Of a stretch of DNA of 54,532 nucleotides, positions 4,206-12,879 are shown one piece after another. Made by a program: the position numbers and the translations under genes. The notes beneath the pieces are model-generated. The model worked only from the letters and a program-made list of their open reading frames with translations. It made no database searches and was not told where the DNA came from. The stretch covers positions 1 to 54,532 of the forward strand of contig CACZIO010000015.1 in the NCBI GenBank assembly GCA_902781215.1. Reading direction: 5' to 3'. This DNA is from an uncultured Lachnospiraceae bacterium (GTDB lineage Bacteria > Bacillota > Clostridia > Lachnospirales > Lachnospiraceae). The stretch's first letter is position 1; every line of letters starts with the position of its first letter.

Positions 4206-5045
4206 TCAGACCGAAGCGGTCACGCGCTGGCGGTAGTCGTCCTGCATGCCCTTGAGGGTGTGCCCCAGACGGGAGGAGAAGGCCTCCTCCTGGTTTTCCC
4301 GCCTGAGCTGGCGCAGGCGCCGCAGCTGCCGGCTCTCGCTCCCCGACTTGAAGCGGCTCTCCGCCCTGGACGCGCGCTGTTCCACCTGGTAGGCGCTCTC
4401 GTAAAACTCCGGATGAACCTCCAGGAAAGCCCTGTACTCCTCTCCGCTCATATACATATATAGAGAGGCGACATACCAGAAGGCATGCTCCGGCGCCGGC
4501 GACAGCTCCCAGGCCTGGCGGAAGCAGTCCGCCGCCCGCTCGAAGAGGAAGCTGTCCGCATAGTGCAGGCCCTTTTCCTTCCAGATCTGGGCGCGGGTCC
4601 CGCGCTCCATATCGGGGAGCTTCTCCAGAAGCTCCGTGTAAGTGGTCTGGGCCTGCCGCATGTGGCCGCGGCCGGCCAGCATCTGCGCGCGGTTGAGGTC
4701 CCTGTTGATCGACGCCATCCCGCTGCCCTTTTCCATGCGCTCCAGGACCCTTGCCGTCTCACCCGCCGGGAGTGTCCCGCACTCCCGCAGGATCGTCGCG
4801 ACAAATTCCTTCGGCGTGTGGCGGCCCCGGAGCTGTCCCCGCAGCAGCCGCGCCAGTTCATGCAGCCCGCAGGACTCCGAGAGCCAGTCCGCCAGCGCGG
4901 GATCCATGATCTCCTCATCGATGAAATCCGCACACTGCGCCAGCGAATAGCACAGTTCCTCGGCGGAATAGACATTCCGCTCGATCCTCCGGATCCTGTA
5001 GGGCGTCTCGGCGAGCCTGCCCGTCACTGTCAATACCCTGCCCAT
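4206..5045 (-). CDS. Helical-repeat (TPR-like) protein of unknown function, third gene of the DUF5717/DUF5716 operon
   Basis: 279 residues, soluble, with no signal peptide or membrane segment. The first 20 residues are beta-like and the rest is helical. Residues about 110-205 contain TPR-like helix pairs (NRAQMLAGRGHMRQAQTTYTELLEKL, then ADSFLFERAADCFRQAWELS). The last 60 residues are Arg/Gln/Glu-rich and probably a coiled coil. It starts 59 bp after the upstream actin-fold gene and ends in a strong terminator, so it is the last gene of the operon. I do not recognise a named family. Context suggests it works with the other two proteins, which is inference. Confidence 0.75.
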   Translation of the reverse strand: MGRVLTVTGRLAETPYRIRRIERNVYSAEELCYSLAQCADFIDEEIMDPALADWLSESCGLHELARLLRGQLRGRHTPKEFVATILRECGTLPAGETARVLERMEKGSGMASINRDLNRAQMLAGRGHMRQAQTTYTELLEKLPDMERGTRAQIWKEKGLHYADSFLFERAADCFRQAWELSPAPEHAFWYVASLYMYMSGEEYRAFLEVHPEFYESAYQVEQRASRAESRFKSGSESRQLRRLRQLRRENQEEAFSSRLGHTLKGMQDDYRQRVTASV

Positions 5046-5104
5046 TTTTTTCTCCTGATCATCTGATCAACGATTGTCGTACAGCCCCTTCCGGAGCTTT
5101 GTCA

Positions 5105-6439
5105 TCACACTTCAAAGGCCGCCTCCCAGACGCCTCCTCCGGAGGGAAAGATCTCCCCGAAGCCCAGGTCCCTGACCTGTACGCGCAGGCGGTCCGCCGC
5201 CGGCATGGTCAGAACGGCCCTGAGCCTGGTCGTCCGGTCCGGCCGCTCCGGCAGCCCGTCCAGCTCCACCGTCAGCGTCCGGGGCTCCCCGCCCGTCACC
5301 GGCGTCTGCACCAGGTTGAATTCTCTGCCCGTGTCCAGGATAAAGTCCTCCTCCACCTCGGCATTGTACCACTTCACGCCCGCGTCCAGCAGGACATGGT
5401 AGCCGACCTGCTCCCGCATCAGCACTTCGATTCCGATGTTGGACCGGAGCGCATCCGGCGACAGGAAGACACTCTCCGGGATCTCGGCGGGCCGGTCCGT
5501 GTGGAGCAGGGCGCTGTAGGCAGCACCCTTGCTGAACAGGTTCTCCCCCTGGAAGACTCTCCGCCCCCGGCACAGGACCGACGCGGATTCCTTCATCCAG
5601 CTCCCGGAAAAGCCCTCCCCGGTCAGATAGACCGCGGAGACCTCCTGGTCCCGCAGGACCTCCTGCACGGTCTCGGCAAAGGCATGGTCGCGGAGACCGC
5701 CCGACAGGTCCGGCGCAAGGGACCTCTCCTCCATCTGTGCCCAGTAGACCACGGGCTCCGCCCTGCGGTTGCAGGACAATGTCGAAAAGGAAAGCGCCCC
5801 GTCCAGGCTGTACTCGCACAGCAGCATCCCCGCCCGGCGCTGTTCGGCGTCCTGCATGAGCATGTAGCTGTAGAAGGATTCCCGGTAGTCCTCACACAGG
5901 ACCTGCTGCACGGGAAGGTCCAGACGTCCGAAGGCCCGCAGGATCACCTGCTCCATGGAATAATCCATTTCGGGAGCCGTGAATACCACCGCTGCGATCT
6001 GCTCCGGGGCGATCTCCGGCTCCAGCATGGCGATACAGCGGCGCAGATAAAGTGCCAGCAGGGCTCCCGCGCCGTACTCCTCCCCGCCGACCCGGATACT
6101 CAGGTCTCTGCGGGCCTTGTCCAGAAGGCCCGTCACCAGCGTCCCCTCGCCCTCCTGTGCCGCCTCGACCGCATCCTGGCCGGCCAGCCAGACGGGAGAA
6201 TCCGTACATTTGCACAGCGCCATGGGAATGTTGTAGGCCTCCTGCCCCGAAACAGTGGAGAAGGTCACCGGCTCCCGGGAGACCCCTCCCGTCGCCGCGT
6301 TGACAAAGCCCTTTCCGAACCGGGCTCTCTTATTATATAGATAGGAAATCTGGCAGTGATCCTGCGTGAGGTCGATCCCCAGCATGAATTTGCCGACCGG
6401 TGATTTGGATATGATCATTTCTGTCGGTATAACCTCCAC
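5105..6439 (-). CDS. DUF5716-like protein with a degenerate Hsp70/actin ATPase fold
   Basis: 444 residues. The order of elements follows Hsp70: MLGIDLTQDHCQISY near the N-terminus (phosphate-1 position), AVVFTAPEMDYS with VLCEDYRESFYSY (the VITVPA and EPxAA positions), VYLTGEGFSGSW (adenosine motif) and NLFSKGAAYSA (GAA helix). The glycine-rich phosphate-2 motif is eroded to EYSLDGALSF, so nucleotide hydrolysis is doubtful. The last 100 residues are beta-rich and are not a DnaK substrate-binding domain. The start is ambiguous: GTG at 6439, or an ATG seven codons later that lies 14 nt after GGAGG. It follows the DUF5717-like gene by 23 bp. The DUF names are recalled from Lachnospiraceae genomes, not searched. 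Confidence 0.72.
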   Translation of the reverse strand: MEVIPTEMIISKSPVGKFMLGIDLTQDHCQISYLYNKRARFGKGFVNAATGGVSREPVTFSTVSGQEAYNIPMALCKCTDSPVWLAGQDAVEAAQEGEGTLVTGLLDKARRDLSIRVGGEEYGAGALLALYLRRCIAMLEPEIAPEQIAAVVFTAPEMDYSMEQVILRAFGRLDLPVQQVLCEDYRESFYSYMLMQDAEQRRAGMLLCEYSLDGALSFSTLSCNRRAEPVVYWAQMEERSLAPDLSGGLRDHAFAETVQEVLRDQEVSAVYLTGEGFSGSWMKESASVLCRGRRVFQGENLFSKGAAYSALLHTDRPAEIPESVFLSPDALRSNIGIEVLMREQVGYHVLLDAGVKWYNAEVEEDFILDTGREFNLVQTPVTGGEPRTLTVELDGLPERPDRTTRLRAVLTMPAADRLRVQVRDLGFGEIFPSGGGVWEAAFEV

Positions 6440-6462
6440 GATCCTCTGACGCCGCCTGCATC

Positions 6463-9400
6463 CTATCTGCGGAAGAGCTCGTTCTCCAGATAGCTTCTGC
6501 GGTAATAACCGGTCAGCAGGGAGAGGGCCTCATCATACTCCCGCAGCGCCGCGGCCCGGGTCGTCTCATTGATCAGGCCGAACCGTCCCGAACAGGTTTC
6601 CAGGATCCGCGCGTCCTGACCGATGATCCCGCTCTGCACGACATGCTTCTGCGCGGCATCGTCAGTGATATAGTAATGCATCTGTTCTCCGTAGAAGAGC
6701 AGGAAACCAGATACAAAAAAGTCCCTGTACATCTCCTTCATGGGGCGGGAGCGGTAGTTTCCCGCCTCGCCTCTCCGTGAAGTCGTGTAATGAAATACGA
6801 TATTCCGTCCCCTCCCGTCATCCTGCGCGGCGGGATGGTACTGGACCAGTGTCTCCTCCGCATAGAGGTCCAACCGGTCATCGTAACCCGGGAACTGCCG
6901 GTAGAAGGGGAAGATGATCCCCTTTGAGAGCAGGGCGGACAGGCTCTCCCTGGCCGCCGTCCGCTCGCGGGTGGAGATATCCCCCTGCCGCATGGACAGC
7001 TCCTTGAGGCAGGCGATCCTGCAGATATCGGGGATCCGGTCCCGCCGGTCCGCTGTCCCCGTGCCCTCCGCAGCTGCGGCGGCTGCAGGGCCTGCGGATT
7101 CATCCGCGATCAGGCCCGCGATCAGCTCCGTCATGCGTCTGCCCATGGATATGCCGCCGGAGAAGGCGAAATCCGCATAGGCGGCGACCGCCGGCAGGAA
7201 GATCTCTCCCGGCCTGCTGCCGGTACTGAGCAGGATCTGCGCGTGCTCCTGCAGGACCGTCCCGGTAAAGAGCATCTGGCGGAGGATCCTGTCGTCCAGG
7301 TCCCCGGTCGGAAGCGCCGCGTCCATACAGCCCTTGCGGAGCCGCAGGAGCTCCCCGGCCAGACCGCTGAAGGAATCCGCCAGCCTGGCGAGCAGGTCCG
7401 GGGATGTATTGCCCCGGGAAAAAGCATCCCAGCCGGCAGAGATCAGAACCGCGCGGGCGCTCCCGTCCCAGGACATCCCCAGGCAGAGCCTCGCCAGCGT
7501 GGGAGCGGCGATCTCCTCACTGCCGTATACGGACAGCCAGCGCAGCGCCTGGTCAAAGGCCTCCGCGTCCGCCAGCGAGGCATAGAGCTCGCCCCTCTCC
7601 TGCGCCGTGCACTGGGCCGGATCCGCCTTGGACAGGAAAAAGCGCTGGAGTTTTTCATCTCCCGCCCCGGCCTCCAGGCAGCTCAGCAGGAGATCTGTGC
7701 GGGCGGAGGAAGTCAGGAGGCCGCTGTCCAGGAGGCGCCCTGCGCCGGCCGCCTGCTCCTGCCCCTCTTCTCCTGTGAAGTTCAGCCGCACGTCCCCCCG
7801 GTTTCCGAAGCCGATCCTCTCTGCCAGAAGATAGGGATTCTCCTCCTGCCGGACAGACCTGTCCGCGCGGCGTCCCCTCTCGGAGCGCACCGTCAGAGCG
7901 ACCGGCGCTGCCGGAGCCGCGGCCTGCGCTTCCTCTGTCATCTCCTGCAGGTCCAGGGCATAGGGGAGACTCTGGGCGTAGCGGTTTCCGTCCTCGTCCT
8001 CCAGAAATACCGTATTGGCATCCCCGTACACCGTCAGAAAGGCGACGCCGCCCCGCAGCGGGACCTTCTCCTCTTCCCGGAAGCGGTCATACAAAAGCAC
8101 TGCCCGGACCGGCCGCCGCGCCGTCGTGCGCAGGATGGCATTTCGCCCCGCGGGCAGACGGCAGCGTGAATCGTCCGCCGGCATGCTCTGCCGCCAGTTC
8201 TCTTCCAGCCTTGTCAGGCCGACGCCGGCCTCCATGGCCCTGTCGTACCATTTGTGGGCCTGCGGGGACAGGTCCTGTCCGCGCACCAGGAGGATGCAGA
8301 TGGCCCGCAGCAGGTCCTCGCGGGGCGCTTCTTCATCCCAGGCAGCGCACAGGGCCTTGAAGAGGACCTTTGAAAAGGTCTTCTTTTTCTCCGCGAGCTC
8401 GATCATGACCTCGACCGCCCTGTCCGTCAGGGCGCCGGCCCGCGCCGCGTACCAGAGCACATGCAGGCCGAAATCGTCCCTGGCCCAGCGCTCCTGGACG
8501 CTGCTGCCGGGCAGCAGGATCCCGGGATCCTCGCGGATCATATCCCAGGCCTCGGTCCAGATCAGGGGACTGCTGCAGCCGTTCTCAAACTGATGCCGGA
8601 GGAAGTTCCACCGGGCAGGTGTTCCCGGCGCGTACTCCTCCGCCAGGTCGAGCAGCATCCAGGCCGTCCGCCAGCTGCCGGTCTGCCTGTAGATCCCCCG
8701 CAGAAAACGCACGACGCGGCTGCGGAGCTGCGTATCCTCCTCCTGGCAGCGCGCGTACAGATACATGCGGTAGCAGTAGGCCTCCTCCTGCTCCCCAGTG
8801 AAGCGGGTGGAAAAATTCTGCGCGGCGTCAGCCCCGGCCTGCCGGACCGCGATGCGGCCCAGCTCCCTCTGTGCCTCGGCATACTGGCCCCGCAGGATCA
8901 GCAGGTGGACACCGTAGAGTCTGGGGATCAGATCCCGGTGGCTCCGCATGGAGATCTCATCGATCAGGCGGTCCGCCTGCAGAAACCACCCCTCGGTATG
9001 TCCGCCCGCGCCGGCATTCTCCTGCGCATCCGCCGCGGAGGGCTGCCGGTCCAGGCGCACGTCGACATACAGGCGCATCAGCTGCAGCTGCAGCAGCTCC
9101 AGCTCCCGTTCCTGTCTGCGGCGAACCTCTGTGCCGCCTCCCGGGCAGTGCACCTCGACCGGCACTGCCGTCTCATTGAAGGGTCCGCGCACGATGACCC
9201 GGCCGAAATTGCGGCCGGCGTGCAGGGCAGCCCGGTCGACCGGGATCCTGGCCTGCCACAGGTCTCCGCTCCCCGGGACCGGTTCCGGCTCTACGCTGCC
9301 GGACAAAAACCGTCCCTCCAGCCTCACAGCGGGCCGCAGGGCACAGGGTGCTGTCCGGCGGATCTGCAGGGTCAGCCAGACCGCCTCCTCCTCTTTCTTT

Positions 9401-10230
9401 TTTTCTCTGGTGACAGGCTCTCCGCCCAGGCCGCTGTTCCGCACCCTCTGGCGGTGGGCCTCCAGCGCGCGTTCCGCCCGGCTCTCCGCCATGCGGCCCT
9501 TGGCGCGGCCCGCACCCGTCCGGGTCTTGATCCTGAGTTCCTTCTCCACGGGTTCAAAGAGGGCCTTCTCCTTGCCGCAGGCCGCGATCAGGAATTCCTC
9601 GACATTCTGCAGGCTGCCCTCCTGCATGGAGAGTCCCCGGTAGAGGGTCCGGTCCTCCTCCGAGGTCAGGATCTCCTCCAGACGCTTCTCGTAAAACAGG
9701 GCCGCCGCCCTCTCGAAATCCTCCTCCGCCAGGGCGAGGAAGTCCTCCTTGCTCCGGATCTGCGGCCGCGCCGCATTCTCTGTTTTCTCCGCTGTCTCCC
9801 TGTCCGCGGATCCTCCGCCGCCAGCCGCTGCCGCCCTGCGCCGGGCTGTCCTTCTGCGCTGCAGGGTCCCTTTTTCAGAGATCTCCACTGTATAGGGGAT
9901 CGTGTATTCCCCGTAGGGAGAGATCACACGAAAACAGCCGCGGACCGTCCTGCCCGGCGCGGCGCCGCGGGCGTCAAACTGCCAGCGGATATAGCCTGTC
10001 CCGTCCGCCGCGGGCGCGAACTGCTCGCGAACGCCGTGCATACAGGGTTCGGATGGGTAGACATATCCCCTCGCCGGCTTCCCCGCCCTGTGGCGGACCC
10101 GGATCACACCCTCCCGGCCCGTGCCGCTCTCGGCCTCAAAAGCCAGCCGGTCAGGCTCGAAGACCAGTCCCGCATCCGGCACGTGGAAGGTCTCTCCCTG
10201 CATGTTTTCTTTCGTGTAATAATCTCTCAT
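6463..10230 (-). CDS. Very large DUF5717-like protein, unknown function
   Basis: 1255 residues with no signal peptide or clear membrane helix, so probably cytosolic. Residues 1-120 read as a beta-sandwich, residues about 125-140 are a basic and then Gly-rich linker, and residues about 283-365 form a second beta-rich segment. The bulk from about 370 on is alpha-helical and reads like repeats. It is the first gene of a three-gene operon that ends at 4206, and it starts about 270 nt downstream of a possible extended -10 promoter. The start at 10230 has only a weak GGAAAT site. The layout resembles a scaffold with helical repeats. A role together with the neighbouring Hsp70-fold protein is inferred from gene order alone. 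Confidence 0.7.
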   Translation of the reverse strand: MRDYYTKENMQGETFHVPDAGLVFEPDRLAFEAESGTGREGVIRVRHRAGKPARGYVYPSEPCMHGVREQFAPAADGTGYIRWQFDARGAAPGRTVRGCFRVISPYGEYTIPYTVEISEKGTLQRRRTARRRAAAAGGGGSADRETAEKTENAARPQIRSKEDFLALAEEDFERAAALFYEKRLEEILTSEEDRTLYRGLSMQEGSLQNVEEFLIAACGKEKALFEPVEKELRIKTRTGAGRAKGRMAESRAERALEAHRQRVRNSGLGGEPVTREKKKEEEAVWLTLQIRRTAPCALRPAVRLEGRFLSGSVEPEPVPGSGDLWQARIPVDRAALHAGRNFGRVIVRGPFNETAVPVEVHCPGGGTEVRRRQERELELLQLQLMRLYVDVRLDRQPSAADAQENAGAGGHTEGWFLQADRLIDEISMRSHRDLIPRLYGVHLLILRGQYAEAQRELGRIAVRQAGADAAQNFSTRFTGEQEEAYCYRMYLYARCQEEDTQLRSRVVRFLRGIYRQTGSWRTAWMLLDLAEEYAPGTPARWNFLRHQFENGCSSPLIWTEAWDMIREDPGILLPGSSVQERWARDDFGLHVLWYAARAGALTDRAVEVMIELAEKKKTFSKVLFKALCAAWDEEAPREDLLRAICILLVRGQDLSPQAHKWYDRAMEAGVGLTRLEENWRQSMPADDSRCRLPAGRNAILRTTARRPVRAVLLYDRFREEEKVPLRGGVAFLTVYGDANTVFLEDEDGNRYAQSLPYALDLQEMTEEAQAAAPAAPVALTVRSERGRRADRSVRQEENPYLLAERIGFGNRGDVRLNFTGEEGQEQAAGAGRLLDSGLLTSSARTDLLLSCLEAGAGDEKLQRFFLSKADPAQCTAQERGELYASLADAEAFDQALRWLSVYGSEEIAAPTLARLCLGMSWDGSARAVLISAGWDAFSRGNTSPDLLARLADSFSGLAGELLRLRKGCMDAALPTGDLDDRILRQMLFTGTVLQEHAQILLSTGSRPGEIFLPAVAAYADFAFSGGISMGRRMTELIAGLIADESAGPAAAAAAEGTGTADRRDRIPDICRIACLKELSMRQGDISTRERTAARESLSALLSKGIIFPFYRQFPGYDDRLDLYAEETLVQYHPAAQDDGRGRNIVFHYTTSRRGEAGNYRSRPMKEMYRDFFVSGFLLFYGEQMHYYITDDAAQKHVVQSGIIGQDARILETCSGRFGLINETTRAAALREYDEALSLLTGYYRRSYLENELFRR

Positions 10231-10381: not shown

Positions 10382-10432
10382 GTAAAAGAAACAGGTGCCG
10401 CGTCCTCACAGAACCGGGCGCTGTACCTGTCT
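10382..10432 (-). terminator. Hairpin with U-rich tail in the leader of the DUF5717 operon
   Basis: ACAGGT (10391-10396) pairs with ACCTGT (10425-10430) with further GC pairs inside. On the minus strand it is followed by TTCTTTTACT. It lies between the candidate promoter at 10506 and the 10230 start, so it could be the htpG terminator, an attenuator, or both. The stem is short. Confidence 0.4.
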
Positions 10433-10505
10433 CTTTGACTACTGATGTCTGAATGCCATCGTAATACCGTTTATTTACGCACCGTCGAAAAACCCGTCAA
10501 CGGAA

Positions 10506-10594: not shown

Positions 10595-10668
10595 AGAACC
10601 CTTCTCGCCCGTCCCGGATCAGGCCGGTCAAAGAACCCTTCTCACCCGTCCCGGATCAGGCCGGCAGA
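10595..10668. repeat. Two tandem copies of a 37-bp unit downstream of htpG
   Basis: Copies at 10595-10631 and 10632-10668 share AGAACCCTTCTC, then CCCGTCCCGGATCAGGCCGG, with about three differences. They lie just beyond the htpG stop codon (10708). Confidence 0.75.
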
Positions 10669-10707: not shown

Positions 10708-12879
10708 TCACTTGTTTTCTCCGGTCAGCAGGAGAAGGATCTCATTGCTGCGGGAGACAAACTTCGCCATCTCGTCTCCGGTCAGGGGCTCGTTCTGCAG
10801 GACGGCCAGGTCGTAGAGCTGCTCACAGATGAGTTTCGTGTTTTTGGCTTCCTCTTCCTCGCCATGGGTCAGGACATACTGGACCAGGGGATGGGCGGCG
10901 TTGAGGATGAGGGTCCGGCCCTCTTTTTCCATTCCGGTGGGGCCAAAGCCCATACCGTTGGCCGCATACATCTTCATCATGTCCGTCATGCGGCGGGTCT
11001 GCTCGTTGACGGTGAGCATGGAGGAGACCGCAGGGTCCTTGAGGGTCTCGAGCTTCACCTCCAGCTTGTCGTCGTCCAGGGCCTTGCGGACGATCTTCGT
11101 GATCTTCTCGCCGTCAGCCTTTGCCTGCTCCTCGTCCTGTGCCTGCTCCTCGTCCGCGCGCAGGGCATCCTGGATGTCCGCGTCGATGCGGGCGAAGTGG
11201 ATCCCCTCGTTTTTAGCCTCCAGCTGGGAGATGAAGGGCTGATCGATGTTGTGGGTCAGGACGAAGGCCTGCATGTTGTTCTCGCGGAACATGCGCACAT
11301 ACTGGCTCTGCTGTTCGGGATCGGTCACATAGTAGATCGTGCGGTCCTTCGGGTCTTCTTTCTCAGAATCTGCGGACTCTTCTTTCGCGGAATCTGTTCC
11401 TGCTGTCTTTTCCGCGTCGCCGCCGGAGACGACCTCAGCCTCGACCCTGTCGCCGTTCTCGTCCACGGCGGTCTCGTCGGACTCGGCGTCCTTCGCGTTG
11501 ATCTCCAGGGCCTCGGGCAGGGTGTGATACTTGCCGTCCAGGTCCTTGAAGAGGATGTAGTCGGTCATCTTCTCGCAGAACTTGTCGTCGCGCAGGCACC
11601 CGTACTTGATGAAGGGACTGATGTCGTCCCAGTACTTGTCGTAGTTTTCCTTGTCGGTCTTGCACATACCGGCCAGCTTCTCCGCGACCTTCCTGGAGAT
11701 ATAGTCGGAGATCTTCTGGGCGAAGCCGTCGTTCTGCAGGGCACTTCTGGAGACGTTCAGCGGCAGGTCGGGGCAGTCGATGACGCCCTTGAGCAGGAGC
11801 AGGAACTCCGGGATGACCTCCTTGATGTTGTCGGCGATGAAGACCTGGCTGTTGTAGAGTTTGATCACGCCCTCAGCGGACTCGTACTCGAGATTCAGGC
11901 GGGGGAAGTAGAGGATGCCCTTGAGGTTGAAGGGATAGTCCATGTTCAGATGGATCCAGAAAAGGGGCTCCTTGTAGTCGTGGAAGACCTTCCTGTAGAA
12001 CTCCTTGTACTCCTCGTCCGTGCAGTCCTTGGGGGTCTTCGCCCAGAGCGGATGGGGATCGTTGCACAGGACAGGGCGGCGGCGGATCTTGAGACGCTTC
12101 TCGGCGGGCTTGTCCTCTTCCGCCTTGTCGGCTTCATCTTCGCCGTCCTTCTTGGCGGGCTCGGGCTTCTTTTCGGGCTCGATCACCTCGAGAACGACAT
12201 CGTCGGGCCTGCGCTCGGACTCATCGATGGTCTCGGTCATCTTGGTCTCGTGCTCGGACAGGTAGATCTCGACCGGCATGAAGGAGCAGTATTTCTCGAT
12301 GACCTCCTGGGCCCGGTAGTAATTGGAGAATTCCACGCAGTCCTCGGACAGGTGCAGGGTGACGGTCGTGCCGATCTCCTTTTTCGTGCCCTCGTCCATG
12401 GCATAGGTGCTGCCGCCGTCGCACTCCCAGTGGACTGCCTTGGCGCCGTCCTGGTAGGACAGGGTGTCGATCTCGACCAGCTCCGCGACCATAAAGGCGC
12501 TGTAGAAGCCCAGGCCGAAATGCCCGATGATCTGGTCGTCGCTGGCCTTGTCCTTGTACTTCTCCATAAAGGCTTCCGCGCCGGAAAAGGCGATGTTGTT
12601 GATATATTCCTTCACCTCGTCCGCGGTCATGCCCAGGCCATTGTCGGTGACCTTGATGGTCTTCTCCTGCGGGTCGACCTCGATGTCGATCCTGGCCTTA
12701 TAACCTTCCGGCAGCTCGTAGTCACCCATCATATCCAGCTTTTTGAGCTTGGTGATGGCGTCACAGCCGTTGGAGATCAGCTCCCTGTAGAAAATATCGT
12801 GGTCGGAATACAGCCACTTCTTGATGATGGGGAACATATTCTCGCTGTTGATCGATAAAGGTCCTCTTTCCATTGCCAT
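10708..12879 (-). CDS. htpG: Hsp90-family chaperone HtpG with acidic insertions
   Basis: 723 residues, against about 620-630 for typical HtpG. ATPase motifs are clear: YRELISNGCDA (about 31-41), DNGLGM (79-84) and GHFGLGFYSAFMV (119-131). The middle domain has NLKGILYFPRL and LPLNVSRSALQ. The extra length lies mainly in two acidic, low-complexity stretches. Residues about 212-265 sit at the junction of the N and middle domains, where eukaryotic Hsp90 has its charged linker. Residues about 463-512 interrupt the middle domain just before TIYYVT. The start has GGAGGTAGACAA upstream. Transcription is probably from 13014-13042 under HrcA control through the CIRCE element. E. coli and Bacillus HtpG lack a linker of this size. 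Confidence 0.96.
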   Translation of the reverse strand: MAMERGPLSINSENMFPIIKKWLYSDHDIFYRELISNGCDAITKLKKLDMMGDYELPEGYKARIDIEVDPQEKTIKVTDNGLGMTADEVKEYINNIAFSGAEAFMEKYKDKASDDQIIGHFGLGFYSAFMVAELVEIDTLSYQDGAKAVHWECDGGSTYAMDEGTKKEIGTTVTLHLSEDCVEFSNYYRAQEVIEKYCSFMPVEIYLSEHETKMTETIDESERRPDDVVLEVIEPEKKPEPAKKDGEDEADKAEEDKPAEKRLKIRRRPVLCNDPHPLWAKTPKDCTDEEYKEFYRKVFHDYKEPLFWIHLNMDYPFNLKGILYFPRLNLEYESAEGVIKLYNSQVFIADNIKEVIPEFLLLLKGVIDCPDLPLNVSRSALQNDGFAQKISDYISRKVAEKLAGMCKTDKENYDKYWDDISPFIKYGCLRDDKFCEKMTDYILFKDLDGKYHTLPEALEINAKDAESDETAVDENGDRVEAEVVSGGDAEKTAGTDSAKEESADSEKEDPKDRTIYYVTDPEQQSQYVRMFRENNMQAFVLTHNIDQPFISQLEAKNEGIHFARIDADIQDALRADEEQAQDEEQAKADGEKITKIVRKALDDDKLEVKLETLKDPAVSSMLTVNEQTRRMTDMMKMYAANGMGFGPTGMEKEGRTLILNAAHPLVQYVLTHGEEEEAKNTKLICEQLYDLAVLQNEPLTGDEMAKFVSRSNEILLLLTGENK

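Follow-up and report, generated by a model that had tools for sequence, protein, structure and literature searches.

The three-gene set analysed here lies on the minus strand of a 54,532-nucleotide contig from an uncultured Lachnospiraceae bacterium (CACZIO010000015.1 of assembly GCA_902781215.1, positions 1 to 54,532; hereafter the window). It encodes a 1255-amino-acid (aa) DUF5717-family protein (6463..10230), a 444-aa DUF5716-family protein (5105..6439, counted from GTG 6439) and a 279-aa protein resembling tetratricopeptide-repeat (TPR) proteins (4206..5045). On its predicted structure and its motifs, the DUF5716 protein is a degenerate descendant of Hsp70. There is more to it than the trio, which appears to derive by reduction from a larger operon of eight genes, several of them Hsp70s, that we found in other families of the order. 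We propose, with a probability of roughly 0.45, that the trio is the reduced Lachnospiraceae form of this multi-Hsp70 system, in which DUF5716 would act as a non-cycling binder comparable to the atypical Hsp70 Ssz1, carried by DUF5717 as a scaffold and joined by the TPR protein as an adaptor.

The window DUF5716 is a member of the Pfam family PF18980 (DUF5716_C), which it matched at 288.7 bits against a gathering score of 34.7 (E 5.3e-86). Its AlphaFold model, calculated from an alignment of 74 family sequences (73 of the 79 full-length named homologues and the window protein), had a predicted local distance difference test score (pLDDT) of 90.6 and a predicted template-modelling score (pTM) of 0.86. 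Among solved structures the best Foldseek match of this model was Geobacillus DnaK (2v7y, E 6.2e-20), followed by DnaK in its ‘stimulating’ state (7kru, 1.9e-19, TM score 0.55); further matches were with Hsc70, BiP, Hsp110 and the ribosome-associated complex (RAC). The Hsp70/actin fold that an initial annotation of the window, made from the sequence alone, had assigned to the 444-residue protein was thus borne out, and on the Hsp70 side. That annotation had also allowed for a filament-like system. An actin-like filament or cytoskeletal role of the MreB/ParM type would draw on the fold that Hsp70 and actin hold in common, and the MreB Pfam model did match HspB and HspV, two Hsp70s of the larger operon. 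However, the matches of DUF5716 itself did not include this model, and 48 of the 50 structure matches listed for DUF5716 were entries of Hsp70-family proteins or of complexes that contain such a protein; the remaining two were chains of ciliary central-apparatus entries whose molecule is unnamed in the list. The structure matches favour Hsp70, and we have rejected the filament reading as very improbable.

In the model, the nucleotide-binding domain (NBD) spans residues from about 16 to 320 and is followed by an almost all-beta domain at about 322-443, where the model ends; the helical lid (the alpha part of the substrate-binding domain, SBD-alpha) is absent. The best DnaK chains matched by Foldseek include the SBD, and over the 50 matches listed the alignments covered 516-585 columns for entries with both NBD and SBD vs 380-425 columns for entries with the NBD only. 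In addition, the DUF5716 profile aligned with HspB over residues 12-436 (E 1.7e-19), whereas its comparison with HspV was weak (12.8% probability); the beta domains of DUF5716 and HspB have GLPxRP..TRL and DLGFGE in common. The HSP70 and DUF5716_C models both matched each of the 18 HspB proteins scanned (18 of 19, the truncated L035 being left out). As the structure alignments run through the SBD and the profile alignment extends into the same region, the C-terminal ∼120 residues of DUF5716 are best read as an Hsp70 substrate-binding beta subdomain (SBD-beta) without the lid. The initial annotation was right on the fold and on an eroded phosphate-2 loop; its statement that the DnaK substrate domain is missing does not hold, since the structure and profile alignments place SBD-beta at residues ∼322-443 and the lid alone is missing.

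Next to these matches stand two negative results: the window DUF5716 did not match the HSP70 model (PF00012) at E 1 or less, and a sequence search of solved structures with the DUF5716 profile returned no match. We file DUF5716 as a descendant of Hsp70 and not as a PF00012 member because the window protein fails this model and has also lost the catalytic motifs. At the catalytic sites it carries DAVEAA, DYRESFY and EYSLDGA. We tabulated these motifs for 18 of the 103 Lachnospiraceae-type DUF5716 proteins, chosen for spread, and for the HspA, HspB, HspV and DUF5716 proteins of the larger operons that fell within set length ranges. The EP pair and GGGT were lost in all 18 Lachnospiraceae-type proteins, that of the window included, and the catalytic lysine was lost in 16. 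The erosion is therefore wider than the phosphate-2 loop noticed initially, and takes in EP, GGGT and, mostly, the catalytic lysine.

The pattern of conservation in the Lachnospiraceae-family proteins brings in another explanation. The most conserved of the DUF5716 stretches measured were the adenosine-side loops (YLxGDGF at 3.5 bits and VFQGNNLYSKGAC at 3.9 bits vs an average of 2.5), DLGFGE and DAGxNWYE, and the least conserved was the phosphate-2 loop (2.1 bits). DUF5716 could accordingly be a nucleotide-sensing switch that would take up ATP or ADP on the adenosine side and signal through the scaffold, with no chaperone activity of its own. We regard this as unlikely; the conservation of the adenosine side may be structural, and the retained beta domain, with its conserved DLGFGE and LPxRP, points instead to partner binding.

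The relatives of the trio outside Lachnospiraceae connect it with Hsp70s that keep their catalytic motifs. From there we fetched 28 loci of 24 genomes. In L032, scanned with Pfam, the eight genes encode, in this order, DUF5717_N (388 aa), the rest of DUF5717 (900 aa), HspA (HSP70, 559 aa), a 630-aa protein with a C-terminal GrpE domain, DUF5716 (523 aa, matching HSP70 at 1.8e-14), HspB (HSP70, 546 aa), HspV (HSP70 with a C-terminal VWA domain, 691 aa) and a TPR protein (387 aa). Profiles recovered all the operon parts in nine of the 28 loci (L032, L034, L036, L038, L071, L073, L074, L083 and L084) and most of them in others; in L071, DUF5717 is encoded in one frame of 1326 aa. A separate DUF5717_N match was missing from L072 and L075 and also from L076, where an unrecognised 308-aa gene takes the place of TPR. 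The parts were in three places in genome G040 (L039, L040 and L081). L087 was without HspB, HspV and TPR, L077 without HspV and TPR at the locus, and L086 had DUF5717 and DUF5716 alone; L031 has HspV and TPR each in two frames, and other loci were cut by contig ends. The GrpE domain was present in 15 of the 16 fourth-gene proteins scanned (out of 22 GrpE-domain proteins, truncated or short ones being left out), and HSP70 together with VWA_4 in 16/16 HspV (out of 18 frames, two L031 pieces being left out).

The four Hsp70-fold paralogues of this operon differ in their motifs: two have them intact, one is without the catalytic lysine and one is a pseudo-enzyme. EP and GGGT were kept in all HspA (20/20), HspV (16/16) and HspB (18/18) proteins. 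The catalytic lysine was present in 18 of the 20 HspA (arginine in the remaining two) and in every HspV, and was replaced in every HspB. The lysine, the EP pair and GGGT were lost in all 21 larger-operon DUF5716 proteins, of which 15 match the HSP70 model at E 0.001, and DUF5716 was therefore probably a pseudo-enzyme already in the larger machine. Compared with the DnaK-GrpE system, the likeness lies in the fold of DUF5716 and in the Hsp70 and GrpE domains of the larger operon; the difference is that the window DUF5716 is without catalytic motifs and lid, and that the window genome has a separate DnaK. We tentatively suggest, at somewhat less than even chances, that these loci encode a bacterial machine not described before, in which four Hsp70-fold paralogues, encoded in tandem and including a VWA-fused Hsp70, are combined with a GrpE-type exchange factor and a scaffold of Ig-like and solenoid domains, and which is spread through one order, whose motors were shed in Lachnospiraceae, so that the trio would work there without ATP or on borrowed DnaK/HtpG.

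The make-up of the eight-gene operon also resembles a theme known from conflict systems. In PMC7159879, GAP1-N2 neighbourhoods are described that can hold HSP70, GrpE, a second HSP70 without the peptide-binding domain and an FNIII-TPR or FNIII-DnaJ fusion, and that include GTPases and GAP1. The combination of HSP70, GrpE, a second truncated HSP70 and a beta-domain/TPR protein is thus common to both, and the operon could be a conflict- or immune-type system derived from such neighbourhoods. However, no GTPase or GAP1 gene was recognised, either among the operon genes scanned with Pfam or in the flanks, where most genes were judged by eye, and the larger operon has four Hsp70-fold paralogues. 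DUF5716 is, moreover, single-copy and near-universal in Lachnospiraceae, with one copy in nearly every genome sampled, unlike sporadic defence genes. PADLOC gave no match for the three window proteins; HspB and HspV touched one candidate family and the L032 TPR protein a PrimPol model, which we read as cross-matches. An origin of the trio as a conflict system is, in our judgement, improbable.

We then considered how widely the trio is distributed. DUF5716 was detected in 145 of 150 Lachnospiraceae genomes (one per genus) and DUF5717_N in 147 of the same genomes; both were present in 144 and both absent in two (G330 and G392). The discordant genomes are G322, G429 and G447, which are 67-69% complete, and G399, which is 99% complete with its DUF5717 match at a contig end. 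The order DUF5717, DUF5716, TPR was found in 78 of 80 named loci, the remaining two being cut by contig ends; these loci are the best 80 of at least 574 relatives and lean towards the kin of the window, mostly Lachnospiraceae such as Kineothrix alysoides, Butyrivibrio hungatei, Eisenbergiella tayi and Parablautia intestinalis. These 78 include L094, with a DUF5716 gene in pieces, and L096, with DUF5717 in two frames, and some DUF5717 genes are cut by a contig end. The same order was present in 20 loci of other Lachnospiraceae genera (L051-L070), picked from the 145 DUF5716-positive genomes mostly for long contigs. The three genes are thus conserved together in related genomes, the point on which the initial annotation had made its proposal depend. 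That proposal, an undescribed chaperone-like gene set of Lachnospiraceae centred on a degenerate Hsp70-fold protein, is supported by the fold, the ordered loci and the 144 genomes with both families. Separately, DUF5716 is in separate frames in L026 and L094, with the neighbouring genes remaining.

In samples of the class, DUF5716 was found in 9/245 genomes, all Lachnospiraceae, and DUF5717_N in 17/391, of which 16 are Lachnospiraceae and one is a weak, below-cut-off match elsewhere. Outside the order, both families are essentially absent from these samples. In a sample of the order, DUF5717 occurred in 145 of 295 genomes, belonging to 16 of the 25 families numbered there. L078, from a genome of another family (G582, 86% complete and 5% contaminated), carries a reduced trio of the Lachnospiraceae type, for which transfer or contamination is possible.

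Many anaerobes of the order sporulate, and a sporulation factor would suit a system found so far in one order of anaerobes; 102 of the 150 Lachnospiraceae genomes had a SpoIVA match (one of them, in G363, below the cut-off, and genomes missing from the list of matches being counted as negative). The cross-table speaks against such a role. DUF5716 was present in 99 of the 102 genomes with a SpoIVA match and in 46 of the 48 without one, and the window genome itself had no SpoIVA match. We have therefore rejected a function in sporulation, which is extremely improbable.

In a tree of Hsp70-like proteins (34 rows chosen by hand, with HspV cut to 520 residues), the Lachnospiraceae DUF5716 proteins formed one clade (100/100), whose sister (100/99) was the DUF5716 protein of a genome from another family, G039. 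All eight genes are present at the G039 locus, two in split frames. DUF5716 as a whole adjoins HspB in this unrooted tree. None of the Lachnospiraceae loci examined has the motors in the operon, and in the window genome the only matches of the HSP70 model were DnaK and, in part, a 651-aa Hsp70/actin-like protein encoded on a different contig. Most simply, the Lachnospiraceae trio can be read as a reduced form of the larger operon from which the motors were lost. The 651-aa protein (L169:6758-8713, contig C12; also seen in L050) has a phosphate-2-like DMGSSTTDF and, by eye, an apparent membrane segment near its C-terminal part.

The two neighbours of DUF5716 have features of a scaffold and an adaptor. 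The window DUF5717 scored 365.8 bits with PF18984 (DUF5717_N, 5.1e-109) and 163.6 bits with PF18983 (DUF5717, 8.1e-48) against gathering scores of 25, which confirms the initial assignment of the 1255-residue protein; all of the DUF-family matches of the window proteins are far over the cut-offs. We modelled a Kineothrix homologue of it (1197 aa, 26% identical; 51 of 66 homologues in the chosen length range plus the window protein in the alignment) and obtained a pLDDT of 87.4 and a pTM of 0.58. This model shows two Ig-like (PapD/ASH-like) domains, two long alpha-solenoid stretches and further beta domains. Its Foldseek matches were weak and comprised TPR scaffolds (SKI, NatA and PAF complexes), chains of the ciliary central apparatus and a PapD-like domain of HYDIN, and a sequence search of solved structures with the DUF5717 profile gave one chance-level match. 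The 279-aa protein reached 20.8 bits with its best model, TPR_2, which is below the gathering score of 27 (3.7e-4), and its homologue in L032 passes a TPR gathering score. In phmmer searches it proved to be a homologue of the TPR proteins encoded last in the larger operons (L040, 3e-9; L041, 3.5e-6). Among the 20 picked loci of other genera, five frames of 690-727 aa were seen; three of these, picked as likely fusions, hold DUF5716 and the TPR protein in one near full-length frame. The idea put forward at the outset, of a scaffold, a pseudo-ATPase core and an adaptor, fits both these fusions and the Ig-plus-solenoid model of the DUF5717 homologue.

From these observations, we envisage the Ssz1-like arrangement as follows. 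DUF5716 would not cycle on ATP and would keep a fixed shape, with its beta domain and the groove between its domains holding a partner or a client. DUF5717, with its Ig-like domains and long solenoids, would provide the scaffold, and the TPR protein would be an adaptor bound to DUF5716. The resulting complex may hold clients without ATP, or may pass them to the general DnaK and HtpG. Functionally, the nearest parallel is yeast Ssz1, which belongs to the eukaryotic RAC. According to PMC8476630, Ssz1 binds ATP, hydrolyses it little or not at all, carries an SBD-beta-like domain but lacks SBD-alpha, and grips its partner where NBD and SBD meet. It is thus an atypical, lidless Hsp70 tightly bound to this partner within RAC, and RAC is among the Foldseek matches of DUF5716. 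As judged from its sequence and model, DUF5716 resembles Ssz1 in having a lidless SBD-beta and no hydrolysis-competent active site. The differences are that Ssz1 has the J-protein Zuotin as its partner whereas the neighbours of DUF5716 are an Ig-solenoid and a TPR protein and its catalytic motifs are lost, and that Ssz1 binds ATP (PMC8476630) whereas nucleotide binding by DUF5716 is putative.

Several observations weigh against this Ssz1-like arrangement. No J domain was present among the Pfam matches of the operon proteins scanned. Two of the 18 Lachnospiraceae-type DUF5716 proteins (L054 and L060) show a lysine where the catalytic one aligns, 3 of the 21 larger-operon proteins keep the glutamate of EP, and, the adenosine-side loops being highly conserved, nucleotide binding may persist. 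Conservation of the beta domain does not significantly exceed that of the NBD (permutation p 0.15), and we have dropped SBD-beta as the best conserved part of the protein. In two species of the genus of the window (L043:704-2203 and L044:6393-7964), DUF5716 lacks SBD-beta and the TPR protein lacks its N-terminal half, which leaves a fusion of the NBD with the remainder of the TPR protein; SBD-beta is therefore not indispensable everywhere. The DUF5717 model is that of a distant homologue with weak fold matches, and reduction is preferred over separate gain on grounds of parsimony and of a single unrooted tree that has long branches.

On the minus strand of the window, the order is htpG, 477 bp, DUF5717, 23 bp, DUF5716, 59 bp, the 279-aa gene, and a hairpin with a T run. 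This last element (about 4129-4091, minus strand) has a folding energy of -22.3 kcal/mol (z -5.3), with none of 200 shuffles equally stable; its loop of 9 is beyond the limit of 8 in a simple scanner, which hence missed it. The open reading frames, the Pfam matches and this hairpin agree with the initial description of three minus-strand genes, separated by 23 and 59 bp and ending in a single terminator. Homologues including those of L008, L013 and L017, as well as the family profile, begin at residue 8 of the listed DUF5716; therefore ATG 6418 is a likelier start than GTG 6439, and the protein probably begins there, which would make the gap to DUF5717 44 bp.

The upstream neighbour, htpG (10708..12879, minus strand as the trio), encodes Hsp90 (NCBIfam HtpG, 649 bits) and had gone without mention in the initial annotation of the trio. 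It raises a further explanation, namely that the trio is a dedicated Hsp90 co-chaperone module that would supply HtpG with clients, the TPR protein being the adaptor that docks. TPRs are common in eukaryotic Hsp90 cochaperones. In 34 of 81 loci, the flank upstream of the trio carried htpG on the same strand; the distance was no more than 1.3 kb in 14 of these loci, among them the window, and the gap was about 20 bp in L109. These counts are non-independent, as neighbouring loci have common ancestry. In contrast, htpG was near in only one of the 20 loci of other genera, where the upstream flank covered was 5-6 kb, and the htpG profile had no match in the eight-gene loci that we fetched. The link is therefore lineage-specific; we rejected HtpG as a fixed partner, and the same result weakens the hand-over to HtpG in the Ssz1-like arrangement. 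In the window, moreover, a strong hairpin on the minus strand (core about 10385-10436; -26.3 kcal/mol, z -4.2), possibly the htpG terminator, separates htpG from the trio. The co-chaperone module thus appears rather unlikely. Owing to this hairpin, the trio may have its own promoter in the window genome; a simple scan gave no sigma-70 promoter between htpG and the trio. The gap also holds two 33-nt direct repeats that are 97% identical and lie 37 nt apart from start to start (10595-10664).

Other neighbours recur around these loci. A two-transmembrane coiled-coil protein of about 394 aa (L104:12149-13333), with no Pfam family over the cut-off, is encoded next after the TPR gene in 57 of the 80 named loci by clustering and in 58 by profile, and also ends some of the larger operons (L031, L036, L072, L075 and L076). 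None of the 37 genomes from the window's genus gave a match to it. In other families it was matched in 19 of 24 genomes, eight of which were without a DUF5716 match (G037, G041, G045, G048, G049, G055, G056 and G057), G041 having an operon cut by a contig end (L088). Being absent from the window's genus and present elsewhere without DUF5716, it is neither part of the window's system nor exclusive to DUF5716 genomes, and we rejected it as a fourth partner. A valyl-tRNA-synthetase-like gene, recognised by eye, lies 3' of the larger operon in L031, L036, L072 and L076, and a divergent gene upstream of it in L071, L072, L074, L075, L076, L083 and L088 encodes what we take to be a CobD-like aminotransferase.

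Lachnospiraceae are common in the gut, and the gene set is near-universal among them (145 of 150 genomes, one per genus) without a described function found in the literature. Pfam lists DUF5716 (PF18980) and DUF5717 (PF18984, PF18983) as families of unknown function; the Hsp70 descent, the SBD-beta and the eight-gene operon come from the present analysis. In the open-licence literature, no paper on DUF5716 or DUF5717 was found, and for operons of Hsp70, GrpE and vWA the conflict-system work (PMC7159879, eLife 2020) alone was relevant. With a multi-Hsp70 operon as its likely origin, the set of ‘two DUFs and a repeat protein’ poses the concrete question of what role an Hsp70 can have after losing ATP hydrolysis and keeping its substrate domain, and further, why a whole family keeps a pseudo-Hsp70. 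The larger operon, an unusual chaperone assembly in its own right, is open to biochemical study, and the function of the trio, as the likely remnant of a larger machine, is now open to testing. If the proposal is true, the trio would be a bacterial parallel to Ssz1, a descendant of Hsp70 kept after its ATPase engine was lost.

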